Below are positions 3,169-30,500 of a DNA stretch of 64,000 nt, piece after piece. The DNA is taken from IMG/VR virus record IMGVR_UViG_3300037805_000644, positions 1-64,000 of that record; one strand, written 5' to 3'. Both the position numbers and the translations under genes were made by a program. The notes under the pieces are model-generated. The model was not told the origin of the DNA. It searched no databases and saw only the letters and a list, made by a program, of their open reading frames with translations. Within the stretch, counting starts at the first letter, position 1; every line of letters begins with the position of its first letter. Source of the DNA: a virus.

Positions 3169-3447
3169 GTCCAAATCCCATCCATTGATATCTTCTGGGT
3201 CCTTTTGCATAGCGAGCACCGCAGCGGCGGCTACACGCCAACCATTCTGCACCTCTGGCCCCACAGCACTCCAAGGCGGGATGGGCTTACCGTCCCAGGT
3301 CAGGCCGCCCTTGGCGTTGTTGTACGCCTCGAAAGCAACCTGGCCTGCACCAGGGCCGGCGATCATAGCCCTGAGCCAGACGATCTCCTCGTCTCGGGAA
3401 CGGATATCCTGCATGGTCGGGACATCGATTTGGGAAGTCTCCCTCAT
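3142..3447 (-). CDS. conserved small phage protein, unknown function
   Basis: 101 residues, no signal peptide or membrane segment. The middle reads GLTWDGKPIPPWSAV then EVQNGWRVAA. This short Trp/Pro pattern is common in uncharacterised phage proteins that sit among replication genes. The ATG overlaps the thymidine kinase stop codon by 4 nt (ATGA), implying translational coupling with that gene. The C-terminus overlaps a promoter-like site for the next gene. No enzymatic motif is visible. Confidence 0.7.
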   Translation of the reverse strand: MRETSQIDVPTMQDIRSRDEEIVWLRAMIAGPGAGQVAFEAYNNAKGGLTWDGKPIPPWSAVGPEVQNGWRVAAAAVLAMQKDPEDINGWDLDGNKIPIKE

Positions 3448-5048
3448 GTTTTTCCCCCCTTGTTGTAACAGGCCCGGCAGCGGGCCTCATATTGGTCAGC
3501 CCCAACCTCTACCTGGTTGGTGCCCCCGGATTTCCGGTAACTCCGGGTGGCGTCCTCGCCACAACAAACGCAAACGGCATGGAGTTTGGTGATGTAATCC
3601 GCCCGCACCAGCAGATCGGCCATGGGCCCGAAAGGCTCCCCAAACGAGTCAAGGTCCAGACCCGCAACGATGACTCGTTTGCCCATCTGAGCGAGCACAT
3701 CCACCATCAAAACGAGACCGGGTGCGAAAAACTGGGCCTCGTCGATGGCGATCACGTCGCAGCTCTCATAGCTATGCTCTGAGATTTGGGTGACGTTCTG
3801 GACGGGGATGCAGGGGACTTGGGCGTTGACGTGGCTCACCACGGCGTGAGTGGCATAGCGGTCATCAACGGCAGGTTTGAAGACCTTGACGGCCTGCTTG
3901 GCGAACTGGGCTCGACGGACACGGCGGATCAGCTCTTCACTCTTGCCGGAGTTATGGGTGACCGTGAAATCCCCAAGCAAATAGCGACCCCCCTCAACCG
4001 TGATCCCAAAATAGGGCTCAGGGTCAGACAAAACACCCACATCGAAAGTGGTGACCGTTGGGCGGTGCTTTACTTTTCTTTCCAACTGTTTCCGGGGGAG
4101 GCGAGTCGGAACCTTGGAGACATCCCCCCCGACGTACACCCTATAGTAAGGGCGAACAGGCCCTGTCTGAGCTTTCTTATGGCTGATCCGTACTGTGGCA
4201 GCAAGACCGACACTGCGAGCCAGAAAAGCCACACCCCTTGCCAGATGTGGAGACTTGTTGATGAAATCAAACCCTGCGCCCTGAGTTGCGGACCCATCCG
4301 TGTCCAAGAGACCCGCCAGAAGTTCCAAACGGTCTGCTTGGGTGGCAGACAAGTACCGCTGGGGTATGAATTTGTCGGCCCCAGTCAACCCGTAAAGACC
4401 AAGGGCACGGAAACGATTTGCAATAGGGTTGGGCACTCCTCGACGCCCCACCAACCGAACAGTTCGGGCTTTACCTCGGGGAGCATCCTCGGCCACTCGA
4501 AGCCCATATTTCTGGGCTTGCCTCTCCGCCTCAGCAATGATTTCGGGGTCCATGCTGACCAACCCGATGCGAGAGTCGAAAGAGCCGTCCCCCAACATAG
4601 CGCCCAAAAAATAGGGGTCCAGGTCATCGTCCCCGACTCCCAGGGAGTCAAATGCTGGGACTCCGACGCGAAACAACTTGAAAATGCTTTTGCGCCGATC
4701 TGACCAAGTCAGCCAGTCCCGCACCGAAACATCGAGGACCCGGCCACCCCGCTCACAAGGTTTACCGTAAGGGCGGCTAGGGGTGTCCATGAGAGTCAAT
4801 TCGTGATCAAGGGTGACGACAAAAGGGTCTCCGCCTCGGGCGGGTCGGATCTCGGCCATTGCCCCGGATCCCCTGTGGATTGCAGTCACCAAAACAGGTA
4901 GGCCCTGATCTGAAACCACCCGATCTCCGGTTCTGATTTCCTCAATGGGTTTAAGGGTGCCGTCGGCCATCAAAATCAACTGCCCTTTACGATGGCAGAA
5001 CATGCAACCGCAGATAACCTCAACCTGACCTTGGGGGTTGTGGGACAT
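3444..5048 (-). CDS. tdk: thymidine kinase interrupted by an intein
   Basis: Phosphorylates thymidine to dTMP. Residues 1-17 and 367-534 join to give a ~185-residue type II (TK1-like) kinase. The extein P-loop reads GCMF + SGKSEELIRR, where most TK1 enzymes have GPMFSGKS. The C-extein carries DVIAIDEAQFF (Walker B and catalytic Glu) and paired cysteines CVCC and CRAC for the structural zinc. Residues 18-366 are an intein, so the enzyme should be inactive until splicing because the nucleotide-binding loop is split. Translation starts at ATG 5048. No strong promoter motif is seen directly upstream, so it may be co-transcribed with genes to its right. A direct 4-nt overlap couples it to the next small gene. 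Confidence 0.95.
   Translation of the reverse strand: MSHNPQGQVEVICGCMFCHRKGQLILMADGTLKPIEEIRTGDRVVSDQGLPVLVTAIHRGSGAMAEIRPARGGDPFVVTLDHELTLMDTPSRPYGKPCERGGRVLDVSVRDWLTWSDRRKSIFKLFRVGVPAFDSLGVGDDDLDPYFLGAMLGDGSFDSRIGLVSMDPEIIAEAERQAQKYGLRVAEDAPRGKARTVRLVGRRGVPNPIANRFRALGLYGLTGADKFIPQRYLSATQADRLELLAGLLDTDGSATQGAGFDFINKSPHLARGVAFLARSVGLAATVRISHKKAQTGPVRPYYRVYVGGDVSKVPTRLPRKQLERKVKHRPTVTTFDVGVLSDPEPYFGITVEGGRYLLGDFTVTHNSGKSEELIRRVRRAQFAKQAVKVFKPAVDDRYATHAVVSHVNAQVPCIPVQNVTQISEHSYESCDVIAIDEAQFFAPGLVLMVDVLAQMGKRVIVAGLDLDSFGEPFGPMADLLVRADYITKLHAVCVCCGEDATRSYRKSGGTNQVEVGADQYEARCRACYNKGGKT
3951..4997 (-). mobile_element. LAGLIDADG intein in the thymidine kinase P-loop
   Basis: 349 residues. It begins with Cys18 of the host ORF (CHRKGQLILMADG) and ends VTHN before Ser, matching standard splice chemistry: Cys1, terminal His-Asn, Ser +1. 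The block B motif TLDH lies at host residues 79-82. Two LAGLIDADG helices, LGAMLGDGS (~148-156) and LAGLLDTDGS (~244-253), make it a full homing intein. Insertion lies exactly between F and S of the phosphate-binding loop, a highly conserved target. All key splice residues are present, so splicing is expected. Confidence 0.95.
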
Positions 5049-5103
5049 CGAGGGTTCTCCTGGTTTGGGGTACCAAGGACCTTACCCTCAACGTGGGGCA
5101 CTT

Positions 5104-5411
5104 TCAGTCCCCCACGGCATCCATGTAGCAGGGAATCCCACGTTCCTTCAAAGCCTTGGCCAGGGTCTCCCCCTGAGCCAGCTCCCGTGCCGTTGTCGTA
5201 ACCGTAATAGAGACAGGGGCAGCCGATCCCATGGGCATTGGAGAGGTAACGCAAACCCAACGCCTTCGCCGCTCGGCGAAGGTCACTGCCAGCCTGCCGG
5301 CTGACGGGGACGACGTAAACCCGGCCACAGCCGCTGGATCGCTGGGGGGGGCGCGGCTTTGGCAAGGGCCAAAGCCTCGGAAAGGATGTCCTGGGCATCA
5401 GAAAGCTTCAT
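5104..5411 (-). pseudogene. small protein gene with two apparent frameshifts
   Basis: Three frames must be joined to get a plausible protein. The ATG at 5411, with GGAGGAG upstream, starts MKLSDAQDILSEALALAKAA. After a run of eight C (5343-5350, minus strand) the frame changes to GRVYVVPVSRQAGSDLRRAA and then YLSNAHGIGCPCLYYGYDNG. Near a GGG at 5184-5186 it changes again to ETLAKALKERGIPCYMDAVG and stops at 5104. Both changes are one extra base, and both fall at homopolymers. Sequencing error is the simplest explanation; decay or programmed shifting are alternatives. A strong promoter-like site precedes it, arguing for a real gene. Function unknown. Confidence 0.6.
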
Positions 5412-5434
5412 TTTCTCTCCTCCGTTCACCTCAC

Positions 5435-8555: not shown

Positions 8556-9136
8556 CTACCCCCCGGTTTGGGGGGTTTCCGCAGACCGGGGCCAAGCCGA
8601 GAGTCTTTGCCTTTTCGGGCTAAAGCGGGGAGCGACGGCACCACGGAAAACATCTAGGGATCCTTTGCGGATGTATACCCTCTCCAGGTTCCTGTCTGGG
8701 CGCTTACGTTGAGTGTGCCCCACTCCCATCTGGGATAGTACCTCTACCAGCCGATCCAAACCCCCATGTGGTTTCTGGTAGAAAACCACTTGGCCAGTTT
8801 TTGAGACACTGCCATCAGCATCCAGGAGCCCTGCAACCCACTCACCCCAGTAAGTCGGTTCTTCGGGGAACATCCACTGCTCCTGCCCTTTTTCGGCGCC
8901 CGTTTGAGAACAGACCAGGACCCGAACTGCTGCCCCGTGAGGTCCCGCACTTTACCCACTCGGGCTCTCCCACATTTCCGGCAGGAGCTGCCCCCTTCCT
9001 GCCGAAGACGTTGTGAGGGGACAATGTCTTCCTGCCCACAGATGCACCGTGCAAGCCAATGCATCTGGCGGCCTCTCACAGGAACTGCCCGAATGGCGGT
9101 CCGGTCACCGAAGGTTTTCCCCGTCAGGTCGATCAT
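8556..9136 (-). pseudogene. LAGLIDADG homing endonuclease, split by a -1 frameshift
   Basis: Two frames make one protein. The first starts at ATG 9136 (GAGGA upstream) with MIDLTGKTFGDRTAIRAVPV, a zinc ribbon (CICG...CRKCG) and a second DLTGQQFGSWSV copy. After AAAAAGGG near 8893-8900 the reading must move -1 to continue GQEQWMFPEEPTYWGEWVA and then the single LAGLIDADG helix VAGLLDADGSVSKTG. The DLTGQxFG motif is typical of phage HNH/LAGLIDADG modules. Either a real -1 slip, an indel or decay explains the break. The start overlaps the end of the membrane-protein gene by 32 nt, as expected of an invading element. Confidence 0.7.
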
Positions 9137-9832: not shown

Positions 9833-10531
9833 TCAGTCGTCAGCCAGGAGTAAATCGATGTTTAGGTCATCAGCGAGATCCAGGCTCTCGGCCTGGGCCG
9901 CAAGGGCAGCCATCCTGCCCTTGCGCTTCTTAGGGGGCTCGGGGACAGGCTCGGGGATAGGCTCGGGGATAGGCTCGGGGATAGGCTCGGGGGTAGGCTC
10001 GGGGGTAGGCTCGGGGGTAGGCTCGGGCACCTCAAACGGGATGACCCGGGTGGGGCCCACTGCGACAGAGGTGCGGACCCTGCTGGGGTTGGACAGGGCC
10101 TCTGCCTTGTGGATGGCACCCTGAATCTTGGTCTTGCTCCGCCCGAAACGTGCAGGGTCAATGCCCAGCCCCACGGCTTGCTCTCGAAGCTCATTCAAGG
10201 TAGGTAGGCTTGATTTCCAGGACCGCCGGGCACCCCCTGTGGGTGTGGTGGACCCCCGGTAAATAACCACCAGCTCGATCTCACCGTCAGAGCGCACTTC
10301 AATGTGGGGCGCACCTCTCCGGCTGGCTTTCGCCATGGCGGCGTTAGCGGCGATGTCCGCTAGAGGACTAGACCCCAGGAGGGTGCAGGCTTCCTTTCGA
10401 GCTTTCTCAAGCTCCTCCTTGGCTACCTGGAGGCGCTGGTACACCGACCCCGCAAAGGTCTCCGACTGGGCGGACAACAACGACTCCGCCCAGGTGGCGT
10501 CCAAAGGTTCTCGGTGCTGCTTGCCGCTCAT
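9833..10531 (-). CDS. protein with HeH/SAP-like motif and PEP repeats
   Basis: 232 residues. The N-terminal region is helical (RLQVAKEELEKARKEAC) followed by a beta-rich EVRSDGEIELVVIYRGS segment. SLPTLNELREQAVGLGI then FGRSKTKIQGAIHKAEA resembles a SAP/HeH DNA-binding motif. A PEP[TIV]PE tract of seven to eight repeats follows, then PPKKRKGRM and a helical acidic tail. The start is ATG 10531 with GAGGG five nt upstream; the TTG at 10558 has no site. A divergent control region separates it from the plus-strand Thg1-like gene. A nucleoid-binding or packaging role is possible but unproven. Confidence 0.7.
   Translation of the reverse strand: MSGKQHREPLDATWAESLLSAQSETFAGSVYQRLQVAKEELEKARKEACTLLGSSPLADIAANAAMAKASRRGAPHIEVRSDGEIELVVIYRGSTTPTGGARRSWKSSLPTLNELREQAVGLGIDPARFGRSKTKIQGAIHKAEALSNPSRVRTSVAVGPTRVIPFEVPEPTPEPTPEPTPEPIPEPIPEPIPEPVPEPPKKRKGRMAALAAQAESLDLADDLNIDLLLADD
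9937..10030. repeat. 12-bp tandem repeat encoding PEPxPE
   Basis: Seven full units of gctcgggg[ag]nag plus a partial one, in frame, encoding the Pro-Glu-Pro tract. Units differ mainly at one or two positions, indicating recent expansion. Confidence 0.9.
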
Positions 10532-10546
10532 GCTGTCCCTCAGCTC

Positions 10547-10648
10547 GAAAGTTTCCAACGTATCTACCCCTTGGCCATCCGCACGTTACCGCCCCAGAGC
10601 CTCTGAAACTTTCAGCGGGTCGAACTTTCGGAACCCACCCAAACTTTC
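10547..10648. repeat. GAAA[G/C]TTTC sites in a divergent control region
   Basis: Four copies: GAAAGTTTCC at 10547, TGAAACTTTCA at 10604 (an 11-bp palindrome around one base), CGAACTTTCG at 10621 and AAACTTTC at 10641-10648. The last abuts the GGTAAC box of the plus-strand promoter. Position between divergent genes fits operators for a dimeric regulator. Confidence 0.6.
10564..10590 (-). promoter_or_regulatory. GGTAAC-N16-GGTAG promoter-like site
   Basis: Minus strand: GGTAAC (10590-10585), 16 nt, GGTAG (10568-10564), one mismatch to the AGTAG box. It points at the gene starting at 10531 and is back-to-back with the plus-strand site at 10651. Confidence 0.5.
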
Positions 10649-17118: not shown

Positions 17119-17569
17119 GGGCCTCTCCTTCAAACAATTGCTTGCGGATCTGGGCTAGCCGGGCCATGCGGGCAGTGTTCAGATCCGTCCCCACTTTACC
17201 GACCATGCGCTCCAACTCTCGGCCACGGGAAATCTGTTCTGTGAGTCGATCCCCCTCCGCCCGAAGCTTGGCGATCCTTAGCAGGTCGTTGCTGACGAGA
17301 CCACGCTCTCGCAGGAGACCCACAATGTGGCGCATGACATCCATTTGTTCATGGATGCGGTCACTGCCATCAAGGGCTTGGGCGATGCGGTTGTGTACGG
17401 TAGGGCAGGCTTCGAGGCCGCAGGTGGGTTCCGTGCAGGTCGAGGGCATCCCCGTGCATCCAGACCCTTCCAGGTCGATGCCGAGGGCACCCTCGATCAC
17501 TCGGAGGCGTCGAAGGACATCAGGGAGTTTAGCAGAGTCCTCGGGCACGGGCGGTGTAGAAGAACTCAT
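17078..17569 (-). CDS. coiled-coil protein with four-cysteine knot
   Basis: 163 residues. A short N-terminal helix is followed by CTGMPSTCTEPTCGLEACP, four closely spaced Cys, then a long helical region (RIAKLRAEGDRLTEQISRGR). Likely a zinc- or disulfide-stabilised coiled coil. It overlaps the end of the DNA polymerase gene by 41 nt, so it is probably co-transcribed and may be polymerase-associated, but that is positional only. Confidence 0.6.
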   Translation of the reverse strand: MSSSTPPVPEDSAKLPDVLRRLRVIEGALGIDLEGSGCTGMPSTCTEPTCGLEACPTVHNRIAQALDGSDRIHEQMDVMRHIVGLLRERGLVSNDLLRIAKLRAEGDRLTEQISRGRELERMVGKVGTDLNTARMARLAQIRKQLFEGEAHAQADASELPGED

Positions 17570-20540
17570 TCTCGTTGACGACTACCTCGTCGTCCCCGAA
17601 GAGTTCCCTCCATGGTTCCAGATCGTTAAGCATCGTACCGTCCGGCAGCTTGATGCGGAGCAACCTGGTGCCGCGTCCTCGACATGCCAGGATGACCCTG
17701 GCCAGATCATCTACCGTCTCGTAACGGAGGGGGCTCCCAACCTCAAAAACGTACACGTCACCTTTCGCGAGCCCGACGGGGGGCCCTGCTGGCATCTGGT
17801 TGGCGACTGCCTCACTGGCCAGTCGGGCGATGGGGCCTTCCTCGAAAGGAGGCGCCACCCGGGGGAGGTCTTCTCGGTACACATCCAGTTCCGGCGAGTC
17901 ATGTGGGATGATCTCGTCGATGTGGTCCGGCTGCACCACCTCCATAGAGGGGATGGTGGTGAGGTGTGGGTACAAGGGCCCACCCACAACTTCCTCTTGA
18001 GGGGCCGACTCAACCACTGCGACCGCCGGCTTGGCGCCAGGCATCTTGGACGGGTCCTCCAAGAAAGCGTCCACCTCCTCGAAGGTGTGCATCTTGAAGT
18101 AAGGGGCCAGGTCCGCAGGGAACTTGGACATGGCATCCCAGACGAGACCCGCCGCCTCTGCTTTCTCAGGCTTCTTGAACTTCTTGTTGCCGTTGAACTT
18201 GACCTCGCCGGCACGCATCGAGTTGAGGTCCCAGGGCACATCCCAAGAGTCTCCGATCTCCACGTCGGAGACCAGCGGCACCGGCCACTTCTTTGCCAAG
18301 ATGAAAGGGTTGGCGCCCATGATGGGCTTGATGACCTCGATGGCCTCCTCCAGCACGGATCCGCAGATGTCGAACACCAGCTCATCGTGCATGGTGATGA
18401 TCATCAAGACCTTTTCTTCGGCCCACCCCCGCTTCTTGCACTCCTTGTACACCAGGGCCATGGCGATCTTGGTGATGTCCGCCGACGAACCCTGGATGGG
18501 GCCGTTCACAGAGTTCCGCTCTGCCTTGGAACGGAAGCCTCCATCCTCATGGTTGATGTCGGGAACCGGATACTTGCGGCCAAAGGCCGTCAGCACGTAC
18601 TCATGCTTGCGAGCGAACGCCCACTGGACCTTCCACCAGCCCGACAGGGTCTTGTAGGTCTCGTCGAACTGCCGCTTGATGCGCCAGCCTTCGTTCTTGC
18701 CGCAGCCCGTCGCCCGGATCACCGCGTTGCCGCCACCACCGTAACACAGGGCGAAGTTGGTCGCCTTGGCGTTCTGCCGGAGGTGCTTCCACTCAGGCTT
18801 CTCAGTGGCGTCGTCACCGTAAACCGACAGGGCCGTCAGGGAGTGAAGGTCACCGATCTTGTCAGAGCCACAGTTTGGGCACCGGCAGGGCGGTGCCTTG
18901 GGAGTCTTGGTCCCGTCCCCTCGATCAAAGGACCTTGAACAGGTACTGCACCGGAAGAACTCGGTCAGCCACTTGGGTTCCCGGCTCAGGTTGGTGACGA
19001 GCCGCAGCTCGACACCAGAAAAGTCGATGGCGACGATGTAACGGCGAGGCGAACCCGGTTTCTTGGGGGGCCTTGCCGCGATGCACTCCCGCAGGCGCCT
19101 CATGCACTCCGGGCGGTCGGGGTTGTACGTGGCGGGCAGTGACTGGAGGTTCATCTGGGGCCAGCCGGGGAGCTGGACCCGGGCCTTGGCTGGGGTGGCG
19201 AAACGTCCCGTGTCCACCTTGTGGGCACGGAAATTGACCCGCATCGTCCCGTCGGTCTCGTCTGCCCACTCCAACATGGGGAACAGGTAGTTCGTGAGAG
19301 CCTTGTGGACCTCACGGAACCGCTTGACCTTGCCCATGTAAGGGAACTTCTTGGCAGCACGTTCAACGATGAGGTCCAGCACGTCTTTCGAGGTCTTGAC
19401 CTGGCCGGATTTCTCAGTGAACACCAGACCGGGGACACCCAGCTCCCAGAACATCTGCCCAAGCTGCTTGGGGCTTGCCACATCATAAATCGGAGGCCAT
19501 GCCTTGCCGAGCTTGTCGATGGGCTGCTTGGGGTCGGGGTACTTGCGCTGGTACTGGTTCTTGGCCCGCTGAATCTGCTCATTGAGCAGGTTGTCGGGAT
19601 CGTTGGCGTCAAACCGATCCCGCAGCATCTTGTAGTAGCCCGGCATCACGTCTCGACCCAGGGCCTCCCCCACCGCACTGTACAGGTCGAAAACGGACTC
19701 GAACCACTCTTGCTGCCCGAGCTGGAGGAGTTCGAGCACCTTCTCCTTGTCCCGGTAAATGCGGTTGCGGTGCATCCACCGGATGGAGGCCACACAGCTC
19801 TTCTCAATGAGGTAAATGCGTTTCTGGCTGTGTCCCCCTGCGGGGGTCATCACCAGCGGATGGAACTTCTCGAAGAGCCTGTAGGTGAAGATGCCATCAC
19901 CGCCGCCATACCACGTCACCTCGACCCGGGCCGGGTCGAGGGTCGAGAAGTCCATGTCTCCCTTGTGCCCCTCAGGGAACAGCTCGGCGAGGTGGATCTG
20001 ATCGAACCCCAGCTCCTTGTCGGTCAGGCTCTTGAGCCGTTTGTCACGGCGCCGGGGGTTCTCCAGGTATGCCAGGATCTCGGTGTCTTCCCAGGTGCTG
20101 GGCTTGTCCCAGTCCCCGAAAGCGACCCCGCCCCAGTACGTCAGGAACACCTGATCGAAGATCCCGCCATGGAAGATCGCCCGCACCTTTTTGGCGACGG
20201 TGGCCGCCATGAGGCGCTGGAACTCTTTCTCGAAAACTGACCAGGTGACGTTGTGCTCAACACCCTCCTTGTGGCGGAGCGGGATGTAGTAACCCGTGAC
20301 ACCATCGGGGCACAGGCAAACCCCAACCATCTGGTCAACCGTGCGCCCGTTGAAGACCCGGTTGTCGAGCCCAGTGGTCTCCAGGTCGAGGGCATAGTAG
20401 CCGTTGGGTGCGTCAAGGCAGTGGTCAATGCATTGGGTGATGTTGTCGTTGGTGACCTGAACGAAGGTGCATTCCTTCATCCACTCACGAGCTTCGATCT
20501 GCGGGTACTGCTGATCGATCAAAAAGTCGAGTCCGTCCAA
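17529..20540 (-). CDS. DNA polymerase, family A, with zinc-ribbon insert and C-terminal extension
   Basis: 1003 residues; the replicative polymerase. A 3'-5' exonuclease domain holds ALDLETTGLD (D52, E54) and YGGGDGIFTY (~D215). Polymerase motif A is DFSGVELRL (507-515), motif B RQNAKATNFALCYG (588-601, with Phe at the position that discriminates against dideoxynucleotides), motif C MHDELVF (717-723). Between A and B lies CSTC ... CRCPNC (531-557), a zinc ribbon inserted into the palm/fingers region, which is not typical of Pol I. About 240 residues follow motif C beyond the usual end. The start is TTG 20540 with GGAGG five nt upstream. Downstream genes overlap, forming one operon. Confidence 0.97.
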   Translation of the reverse strand: MDGLDFLIDQQYPQIEAREWMKECTFVQVTNDNITQCIDHCLDAPNGYYALDLETTGLDNRVFNGRTVDQMVGVCLCPDGVTGYYIPLRHKEGVEHNVTWSVFEKEFQRLMAATVAKKVRAIFHGGIFDQVFLTYWGGVAFGDWDKPSTWEDTEILAYLENPRRRDKRLKSLTDKELGFDQIHLAELFPEGHKGDMDFSTLDPARVEVTWYGGGDGIFTYRLFEKFHPLVMTPAGGHSQKRIYLIEKSCVASIRWMHRNRIYRDKEKVLELLQLGQQEWFESVFDLYSAVGEALGRDVMPGYYKMLRDRFDANDPDNLLNEQIQRAKNQYQRKYPDPKQPIDKLGKAWPPIYDVASPKQLGQMFWELGVPGLVFTEKSGQVKTSKDVLDLIVERAAKKFPYMGKVKRFREVHKALTNYLFPMLEWADETDGTMRVNFRAHKVDTGRFATPAKARVQLPGWPQMNLQSLPATYNPDRPECMRRLRECIAARPPKKPGSPRRYIVAIDFSGVELRLVTNLSREPKWLTEFFRCSTCSRSFDRGDGTKTPKAPPCRCPNCGSDKIGDLHSLTALSVYGDDATEKPEWKHLRQNAKATNFALCYGGGGNAVIRATGCGKNEGWRIKRQFDETYKTLSGWWKVQWAFARKHEYVLTAFGRKYPVPDINHEDGGFRSKAERNSVNGPIQGSSADITKIAMALVYKECKKRGWAEEKVLMIITMHDELVFDICGSVLEEAIEVIKPIMGANPFILAKKWPVPLVSDVEIGDSWDVPWDLNSMRAGEVKFNGNKKFKKPEKAEAAGLVWDAMSKFPADLAPYFKMHTFEEVDAFLEDPSKMPGAKPAVAVVESAPQEEVVGGPLYPHLTTIPSMEVVQPDHIDEIIPHDSPELDVYREDLPRVAPPFEEGPIARLASEAVANQMPAGPPVGLAKGDVYVFEVGSPLRYETVDDLARVILACRGRGTRLLRIKLPDGTMLNDLEPWRELFGDDEVVVNENEFFYTARARGLC

Positions 20541-28406: not shown

Positions 28407-28656
28407 CGTGGATCCTCACCTGTTTGAAATAACCAGAAGCCCCGGGGAGTACCCTCTCCAGCTCGGGGATAGGGCAACCCTTGGCGCAGAACGACTTGGA
28501 GCATCCTGCCTTATGGACCAGGATCACATTGGCACCAAACCCACCAGAGGGCAAGCGGCTGCCATCAATGTTGACGGCACCTGTCCCGTGGGTTTCAACA
28601 TTGGCGACGATACTGGGCTCGCCGAGGGGCTTGCGGAGCATGTGGATCACGTACAT
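28357..28656 (-). CDS. methyltransferase central fragment
   Basis: 99 residues. RKPLGEPSIVANVETHGTGA then NIDGSRLPSGGFGANVILVH matches the RKP...HGTGA...NID...ANV segment that in phage N4/N6 methyltransferases follows the DPPY half. The Cys pattern KSFCAKGCPIPELE is also typical. No motif I or IV is present, so it cannot act alone. It would complete the broken enzyme at 23.7-24.3 kb and the C-terminal protein at 28.7-30.5 kb. The start overlaps the preceding stop (TGATG). Confidence 0.75.
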   Translation of the reverse strand: MYVIHMLRKPLGEPSIVANVETHGTGAVNIDGSRLPSGGFGANVILVHKAGCSKSFCAKGCPIPELERVLPGASGYFKQVRIHDEPDHVEGVPGGTGQP

Positions 28657-30500
28657 CAGTCTTCCCCAAACATGGCGTCAAACAGGTCGGGCTCTTCGGG
28701 ATCAGGCTCGCTTTCGTGCCTCTGATCAGTTGCCAGATCGAGCTTGCGGTACCCGGGGAGCCTTTGGTCCCAGTGCTCAATGCGGTTGGTGGAGATCTCC
28801 ACGTACTCCGGGGTCATGTCGATGCCCGTGAAATCGTGGCCTGTCCTCAAGCAGGCAACTCCTGTGCTGCCTGACCCCATGAAAGGGTCCACCACCCGGC
28901 CCCTTGGCACATCCCGCAGCAGGGTCTGCATGAGCCTCCAGGGTTTTACTGTGTTGTGACTCATCCCTACTGCCGTCTGAAACGTAGGGCAGTCCCGTAC
29001 CGTGAGGTTCCACACATCACCTTTGTAAGGGGTCGGGGTGATCCCTTGAACATAGGAGAGCCGGTATTCCACGCTTTCATGTTCCAGGATGGTGGGTCGG
29101 GTAGGTTTACGGCGCTCCTGCTCCCGGTCCAAGGCGTAAAAGCGCATTTGGTACGACGGCAGGGTCTCCTTGAACTTCCGACTCCCAATTTTGCCCGGCT
29201 GCGCCCCATAGCGGTGCAGGTTGCCCTTAGACCCCAGGGCCTCCCCCAGCAAACGCATCTGCGAGGCGAGATCTGGAGAGACGGTTTTAGCCTGGCGGTA
29301 TGTCCTCACCTTGCCGCCATCTCCTGCCATGTACCCCTCGAACACTGCTTGCCAAGTGGACCGCTGCCGTTGCCAGATCGTGGGGGGTAGCCGCTTGTTC
29401 GACGCCCCACACGGGGACCATTCCCGGAACTGCCCCCCGACCTCCGGGTCGAACCCGATGACCTGGACTGCCTTGGTTCCCTTTTTCGGGTACTCCCCCA
29501 GATTGAATCCCCGACCCTCAAAAAACCGACGAAGCCGGTTGATGTAGTCCGTCTCGTCCTGGTGGAGAGTGAACGAGGGGTACACGTTGGAACCGTGTCC
29601 CGCACGCTGGAGCACACCCTCTGCCAGCCACAACCCGAATACCCACCACCACTCATCCGGCCGGTCGTCCTTGATCCCTATGTCCACCAGCAGAGGGGTC
29701 ATCGTGTAATCCCCTCTGCGGATCGCTTGAGCCTCCACCCACCCCACGTTACCGCCGGTGATGTTCTTGCCTTTCCGGGTGGGCCTCCAGATGAGGAACG
29801 GGTGGTTGTCTGATGCCAGGGTGGTGTAGTTCGTCCCCTGCACTGCGATCTCGTACAGGTGGTCGCTAGTGTACGGGTGGTGGCTGATGTCCTCAATGGC
29901 GTGGAAACGCCCATCCGACCCCAACACCCGGTGGGCCAGGGTGACCTCAGAGATGGGCCGGTACCCTTGTTCTGTCATCACGAAAGCATCAGGGTGCAGG
30001 CAAGGGTGGTGATTCTTGACCCCCTGGGCCGTTCGGGAAGCCCCTGCCCGAGGGCTCTTGAGGCCGTCCGACCCTTCCTTACGCCCAGTGGCAGCGGCGC
30101 CAGTCTGCTCAGGTAGACCCTGGCACCCTGCCTCACGCTCAGCTCGGCTGACCTTGGCCATGTAGTGGAAAGGATCGGAGGCGTCATCGACCACCAGGAA
30201 CGTATCCCGGACCTGGAAGCCCCCGTCCTCCAGGTTGACCGCCCCCTTGTGCCCAATGGGGTTGTCCTCAGGGGCAACCACCATGAGGTGCGCCCCCGGC
30301 TTGAGGACCCTCAGCAGTTGGACGGTCATGGCCTTGTCAGGGGTCCCCACGACGAGGAGACCTGTTAGGGCTCCATCGGCGATGGAGCCCCAGTCCACCT
30401 TGGACATGTTGGGGATGAACACTGCCTCAAGATAGGGCTCGGGAGGGCTCAGGAACGTCCGTAGATAGTCGGACAAGCCCTTGGGGATAGGACGGCTCAT
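28656..30500 (-). CDS. DNA methyltransferase C-terminal part with intein
   Basis: 614 residues, of which 167-516 are an intein. The N-extein reads LLRVLKPGAHLMVVAPEDNP, then VSRAEREAGCQGLPEQTGAA, GRKEGSDGLKSPRAGA and VKNHHP. The C-extein starts TVKPWRLMQTLL followed by VVDPFMGSGSTGVACLRTGH, the SAM-binding motif I of beta-class enzymes. Splicing rejoins the conserved HHP-TVKP motif. DPPY (motif IV) is absent and exists only in another gene at 24.2 kb, so a split enzyme is plausible. The C-terminal tail (ESEPDPEEPDLFDAMFGED) is acidic and shares 26 identical bases with the gene at 15875. Confidence 0.88.
   Translation of the reverse strand: MSRPIPKGLSDYLRTFLSPPEPYLEAVFIPNMSKVDWGSIADGALTGLLVVGTPDKAMTVQLLRVLKPGAHLMVVAPEDNPIGHKGAVNLEDGGFQVRDTFLVVDDASDPFHYMAKVSRAEREAGCQGLPEQTGAAATGRKEGSDGLKSPRAGASRTAQGVKNHHPCLHPDAFVMTEQGYRPISEVTLAHRVLGSDGRFHAIEDISHHPYTSDHLYEIAVQGTNYTTLASDNHPFLIWRPTRKGKNITGGNVGWVEAQAIRRGDYTMTPLLVDIGIKDDRPDEWWWVFGLWLAEGVLQRAGHGSNVYPSFTLHQDETDYINRLRRFFEGRGFNLGEYPKKGTKAVQVIGFDPEVGGQFREWSPCGASNKRLPPTIWQRQRSTWQAVFEGYMAGDGGKVRTYRQAKTVSPDLASQMRLLGEALGSKGNLHRYGAQPGKIGSRKFKETLPSYQMRFYALDREQERRKPTRPTILEHESVEYRLSYVQGITPTPYKGDVWNLTVRDCPTFQTAVGMSHNTVKPWRLMQTLLRDVPRGRVVDPFMGSGSTGVACLRTGHDFTGIDMTPEYVEISTNRIEHWDQRLPGYRKLDLATDQRHESEPDPEEPDLFDAMFGED
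28953..30002 (-). mobile_element. LAGLIDADG intein in a methyltransferase
   Basis: 350 residues. It starts at Cys (CLHPDAFVMTEQGYRPI) and ends GMSHN before Thr, with His-Asn and Thr +1 as expected. The block B His lies in LASDNHPF. LAGLIDADG-like helices are FGLWLAEG (288-295) and FEGYMAGDGG (387-396). The insertion splits HHP/TVKP, a motif conserved in many phage methyltransferases. Confidence 0.93.

Follow-up and report, generated by a model that had tools for sequence, protein, structure and literature searches.

A mobile, bifunctional class-1 intein, combining a Hint splicing domain with a two-motif, PI-SceI-like LAGLIDADG endonuclease, has very probably invaded a phage thymidine kinase gene at its Walker A codons, where it would splice and home, having most likely arrived from another P-loop gene. 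From the sequence anatomy, the predicted fold of the insert, an empty allele and the insertion sites of related inteins, we infer splicing, inactivity of the precursor, cleavage and the route of acquisition. The stretch of DNA analysed (the window, 64,000 nucleotides) belongs to a virus record of 222,939 bases, here G000, and the insert is known from a single metagenomic assembly.

An intein divides the phosphate-binding loop of a thymidine kinase

The precursor of a type II (TK1-like) thymidine kinase is encoded on the minus strand by an open reading frame of 534 amino acids (3444–5048) that stays open throughout, with a likely ribosome-binding site read from the sequence, AGGAGAA (5055–5061, minus strand), 6 nt ahead of the ATG. 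Its N-extein (4998–5048, minus strand), MSHNPQGQVEVICGCMF, comprises 17 codons and ends in ...ICGCMF, the first half of the Walker A motif. The 349-residue intein follows, from Cys1 to His348-Asn349 (3951–4997, minus strand; precursor residues 18–366), and the remainder of the kinase is the C-extein (3447–3950, minus strand; residues 367–534; stop codon 3444–3446), which begins with Ser+1 in SGKSEELIRRV... The insert thus splits the motif just before the Ser of Ser-Gly-Lys-Ser (GCMF/C1...HN/SGKSEEL, slashes marking the junctions), and joining the exteins yields GCMFSGKS, a GxxxxGKS Walker A motif, in a reading frame of 185 codons.

The host protein was identified from the C-extein, which matches the Pfam TK profile (E 2e-43) and was aligned to PDB 1xx6 (E 2e-43), and from an extein score of 208.7 bits on the NCBIfam thymidine kinase equivalog NF003296, above its cut-off of 183 bits. 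Hallmarks of TK1 enzymes are present, namely the joined Walker A motif and, in the C-extein, AIDEAQFF and the zinc cysteine pairs. GC content at third codon positions is higher in the C-extein (0.71) than in the intein (0.585), a weak sign that the two differ in origin.

The precursor would be translated in one piece, and predicted self-excision through Cys1, TxxH, His348-Asn349 and Ser+1 would ligate MF to SGKS and so rebuild the phosphate-binding loop of an ordinary 185-residue kinase that should be active once the intein has been excised. Because this loop is split in the precursor, the unspliced protein is probably inactive; the sequence-only reading had held that nucleotide binding must await splicing, which is a sound deduction from the divided Walker A loop. 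The predicted endonuclease would cut intein-free kinase alleles of co-infecting related phages, leading to homing, and selection for a working kinase would protect splicing, since imprecise deletion of the insert would destroy the loop.

The splicing and endonuclease modules both appear intact

All class-1 splicing residues are present in the insert: Cys1, a block B TLDH (TxxH), His348-Asn349 at the end of the C-terminal splicing (Hint-C) part (3951–4064, minus strand, ending GDFTVTHN), and Ser+1. In an alignment of 35 relatives, Cys1, His65, His348 and Asn349 are invariant. The insert matches the profiles Hom_end_hint (1.2e-11) and LAGLIDADG_3 (5.2e-07), and its AlphaFold model (pLDDT 93.3, pTM 0.91) has a Hint fold, with Z scores of 14–32 against solved inteins. 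The best solved structure for the model is PI-SceI (Foldseek E 2.5e-24); a VIA-align comparison gave Z 31.6 and an rmsd of 3.2 over 338 residues, covering residues 1–349.

Asp218, Asp326 and Lys301 are catalytic residues of PI-SceI. In the sequence alignment they correspond to D137 in the first LAGLIDADG motif (FLGAMLGDG, 4584–4610), D234 in the second (LLAGLLDTDG, 4293–4322, within the Pfam LAGLIDADG_3 match) and K209 (4371–4373), all on the minus strand. PI-SceI, from yeast VMA1, is likewise a class-1 LAGLIDADG intein, sharing the full-length fold at 25% identity; it differs in length (454 residues against 349), in its host, a V-ATPase subunit, and in the sequence of its splice site. Together these features suggest that both the splicing and the endonuclease module remain intact.

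These results bear out the anatomy proposed in the sequence-only reading: its intein borders are exact to the base (349 codons) and are backed by profiles, fold and the empty-site allele described below, the splice residues Cys1, HN and Ser+1 are supported by the sequence and by the alignment of relatives, and both LAGLIDADG motifs are intact, as their sequence alignment with PI-SceI indicates. A chance resemblance or a wrong intein call is ruled out by the profiles, the fold and the empty site.

We also considered that the intein has lost splicing, leaving a dead kinase in a decaying gene. The phage carries a separate deoxynucleoside kinase (ORF 1–693) that might compensate for such a loss; nevertheless, the frame is open, the splice and endonuclease residues are all kept, and the extein motifs are intact and score above the equivalog cut-off, which makes decay very improbable.

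A syntenic relative carries the empty site

In a 402-kb IMG/VR phage (L002 and L003, which are identical in sequence), a kinase sharing 77% identity lacks the insert (L002, 5001–5558) and also has 185 codons. Aligned with it, the joined exteins of G000 show no gaps and 74.7% nucleotide identity, and the junction is spanned by 19 bases identical in both, TGCATGTTCTCCGGCAAGA. The DNA of the empty site in L002 reads TGCATGTTC^TCCGGCAAGACC, with the caret at the insertion point. From the deoxynucleoside kinase to ORF 9833–10558, a few small ORFs excepted, the genes of the two phages occur in the same order at 37–74% amino acid identity. The kinase of the relative is a natural empty site as judged from these comparisons, and the uninterrupted allele in a syntenic phage implies that the insert was gained in one lineage or precisely lost in the other.

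Reciprocal examples occur in the same phage group. The PolA ORF of G000 (17529–20540) has an empty site, NGPIQG/SSADI, at 18488–18489 (minus strand), and the same polymerase bears an intein in the 402-kb relative. Inteins are found in the relative G001 (L035, L036 and L037) in a class II ribonucleotide reductase (RNR; apparently two), a DNA polymerase and a P-loop helicase, the last at TGVGK/C, the RNR and helicase identities having been assigned by eye from motifs. Sites occupied and empty in turn in G000 and G001 are as would be expected of mobile inteins moving within the group.

One alternative is that the insert acts as a regulatory switch, in which delayed or conditional splicing (by redox state, metal or temperature) times the start of thymidine salvage in infection. 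Because the insertion divides the catalytic loop, the precursor is expected to be inactive, and PMC6195587, PMC7360933 and PMC5790916 report conditional splicing in the mycobacterial DnaB and Pyrococcus RadA inteins. However, the close relative has an uninterrupted kinase in the same gene neighbourhood, indicating that the lineage needs no such switch, and the observations are accounted for by a selfish element whose endonuclease is intact, with no need of regulation; we therefore regard this alternative as unlikely.

An intein read from another gene could also have been joined into the kinase gene during assembly. There is one metagenomic assembly, and P-loop codons are presumably conserved between genes. 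Against this, the in-frame borders are precise (C1 and HN/S), and no near-identical intein was found in other genes (best 44–46%), so that the searched data hold no source for a chimaera. An artefact of this kind is extremely unlikely, and an invading mobile intein remains our preferred explanation.

Most related inteins lie at one of two Walker A positions

Matches to the intein were found in 686 INPHARED records, many of them annotated as helicases or terminases. A profile search of IMG/VR, in which retrieval relied on intein motifs and ignored the exteins, left 80 loci, and insertion sites were surveyed in 79 inteins, 73 from this search and six from named phages. Just two positions in Walker A motifs account for 75 of the 79: x/[SCT]GK[STAE] in 56 and GK/[STC] in 19. 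The four inteins elsewhere lie mostly near or inside degenerate Walker A motifs, and one of the 19 at GK/[STC] is outside an NTPase, in the portal protein of the crAss-like phage cr118_1 (L030, REGGK/SATF). The hosts are unrelated phage NTPases, mostly SF2 helicases: among 48 scanned C-exteins of relatives, ResIII and Helicase_C were each matched in 31, with DnaB, RecA and terminase also present, and PHROGs added primase and an ATPase.

Site labels change 10 times along the intein tree, compared with a mean of 22.1 in shuffles, none of the 200 shuffles being as low. Changes that are few but still several imply that insertion position passes down lineages but has also shifted from site to site and from one gene to another, non-homologous one. 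The kinase intein falls, without finer resolution, in a mixed clade of 24 members (support 98/88) whose hosts are helicase, RecA, DnaB-like and terminase proteins. Since relatives occupy Walker A motifs in a wide range of unrelated NTPases, another P-loop gene is the most likely source; the nearest relatives of the kinase intein are just 44–46% identical to it and point to no particular donor.

The same family and architecture are seen in P-loop inteins of phage SF2/DarB-like helicases (Escherichia phage PJ16, Listonella phage phiHSIC and IMG/VR L040–L046), which share about 36–46% amino acid identity over about 350 residues and the position x/[SC]GK[ST]. They differ in having a DNA helicase as host, and in the residues ahead of the junction, PTG or ATG in place of the CMF of the kinase.

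A more specific reading, which we consider possible though short of probable, is that the family tracks Walker A motifs: the endonuclease would recognise P-loop codons, jump between non-homologous genes, and have reached the thymidine kinase because the P-loop codons downstream of the junction served as a common target. The 10 bases 3' of the junction (TCCGGCAAGA) match the majority base at every position among 54 site-A relatives, and the 18 bases upstream show no resemblance to those of the same 54. The downstream agreement is weak evidence for a shared DNA target, because these bases mostly just encode SGK.

Precedents and the rarity of thymidine kinase inteins

A tblastn search of INPHARED with a 110-residue junction query returned seven kinase matches, none crossing into the intein. 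Degenerate junction patterns of the form HN-S-GK-x-EEL had no match in IMG/VR or in GTDB representative genomes, nor did HN-S-GK-x-TEL in IMG/VR; such patterns cannot pick up junctions with Thr+1 or Cys+1 or in different contexts, and entries close to the window could be hidden from the search. The analogous pattern for uninterrupted kinases matched 48 stretches in IMG/VR, duplicate contigs included. The huge phage LR745208, which has a similar polymerase, gave no thymidine kinase match, and text searches of the open-access literature yielded no report of an intein in this enzyme. The earlier impression that inteins are uncommon in thymidine kinase is thus upheld, within the limits of these patterns, by the absence of any other case in INPHARED, IMG/VR and the GTDB representatives against 48 uninterrupted stretches. 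The element itself is of an established kind, whereas its host protein is new, no earlier thymidine kinase case having been found within the searches made.

The nearest precedents are in mycobacteriophages, where inteins occur in terminase and in ThyX; TerL1-a, between the Lys and Thr of Walker A, is termed a classic P-loop insertion in PMC5050341. These, as described there, are also phage inteins, in a Walker A motif (TerL1-a) or an enzyme of thymidylate supply (ThyX); unlike the present case, ThyX is a synthase rather than a kinase, and TerL1-a lies at GK/T, not at MF/SGK. Pithovirus LCPAC304 protein A0A481ZAD2 (613 residues), found by fold, likewise combines a nucleoside kinase with an intein-like insert sharing this fold, but is annotated as a deoxynucleoside kinase rather than as a thymidine kinase of the TK1 family, and belongs to a giant virus of eukaryotes.

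Thymidine kinase joins the proteins with a P-loop intein, and this example is chiefly valuable for testing whether inteins move from one P-loop gene to another. The occupied phage and its syntenic empty counterpart form a clean pair for testing homing, and one phage intein family at two Walker A positions in several unrelated NTPase families means that movement across genes could be tested directly with cleavage assays. Since TK1-type kinases are small and simple to assay, the spliced kinase could serve as a convenient splicing reporter.

Other features of the window

A second intein, of 350 residues (28953–30002, minus strand; KNHHP/C...HN/TVKPW), lies within a DNA methyltransferase ORF (28656–30500); it has weak TIGR01445 and Intein_splicing matches and is followed by N6_N4_Mtase. 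At 8556–9136 (minus strand), an ORF of repeat-type N-terminal sequence (8744–9136) appears to run on, in another frame, into a LAGLIDADG half-domain (8556–8873), possibly representing a frameshifted free-standing homing endonuclease gene. At 5106–5412 (minus strand), the frame of an ORF beginning MKLSDAQDILSEALALAKAA looks interrupted at a C run near 5345–5352 and appears to resume in another; a homopolymer error could account for this, as could a disrupted gene.
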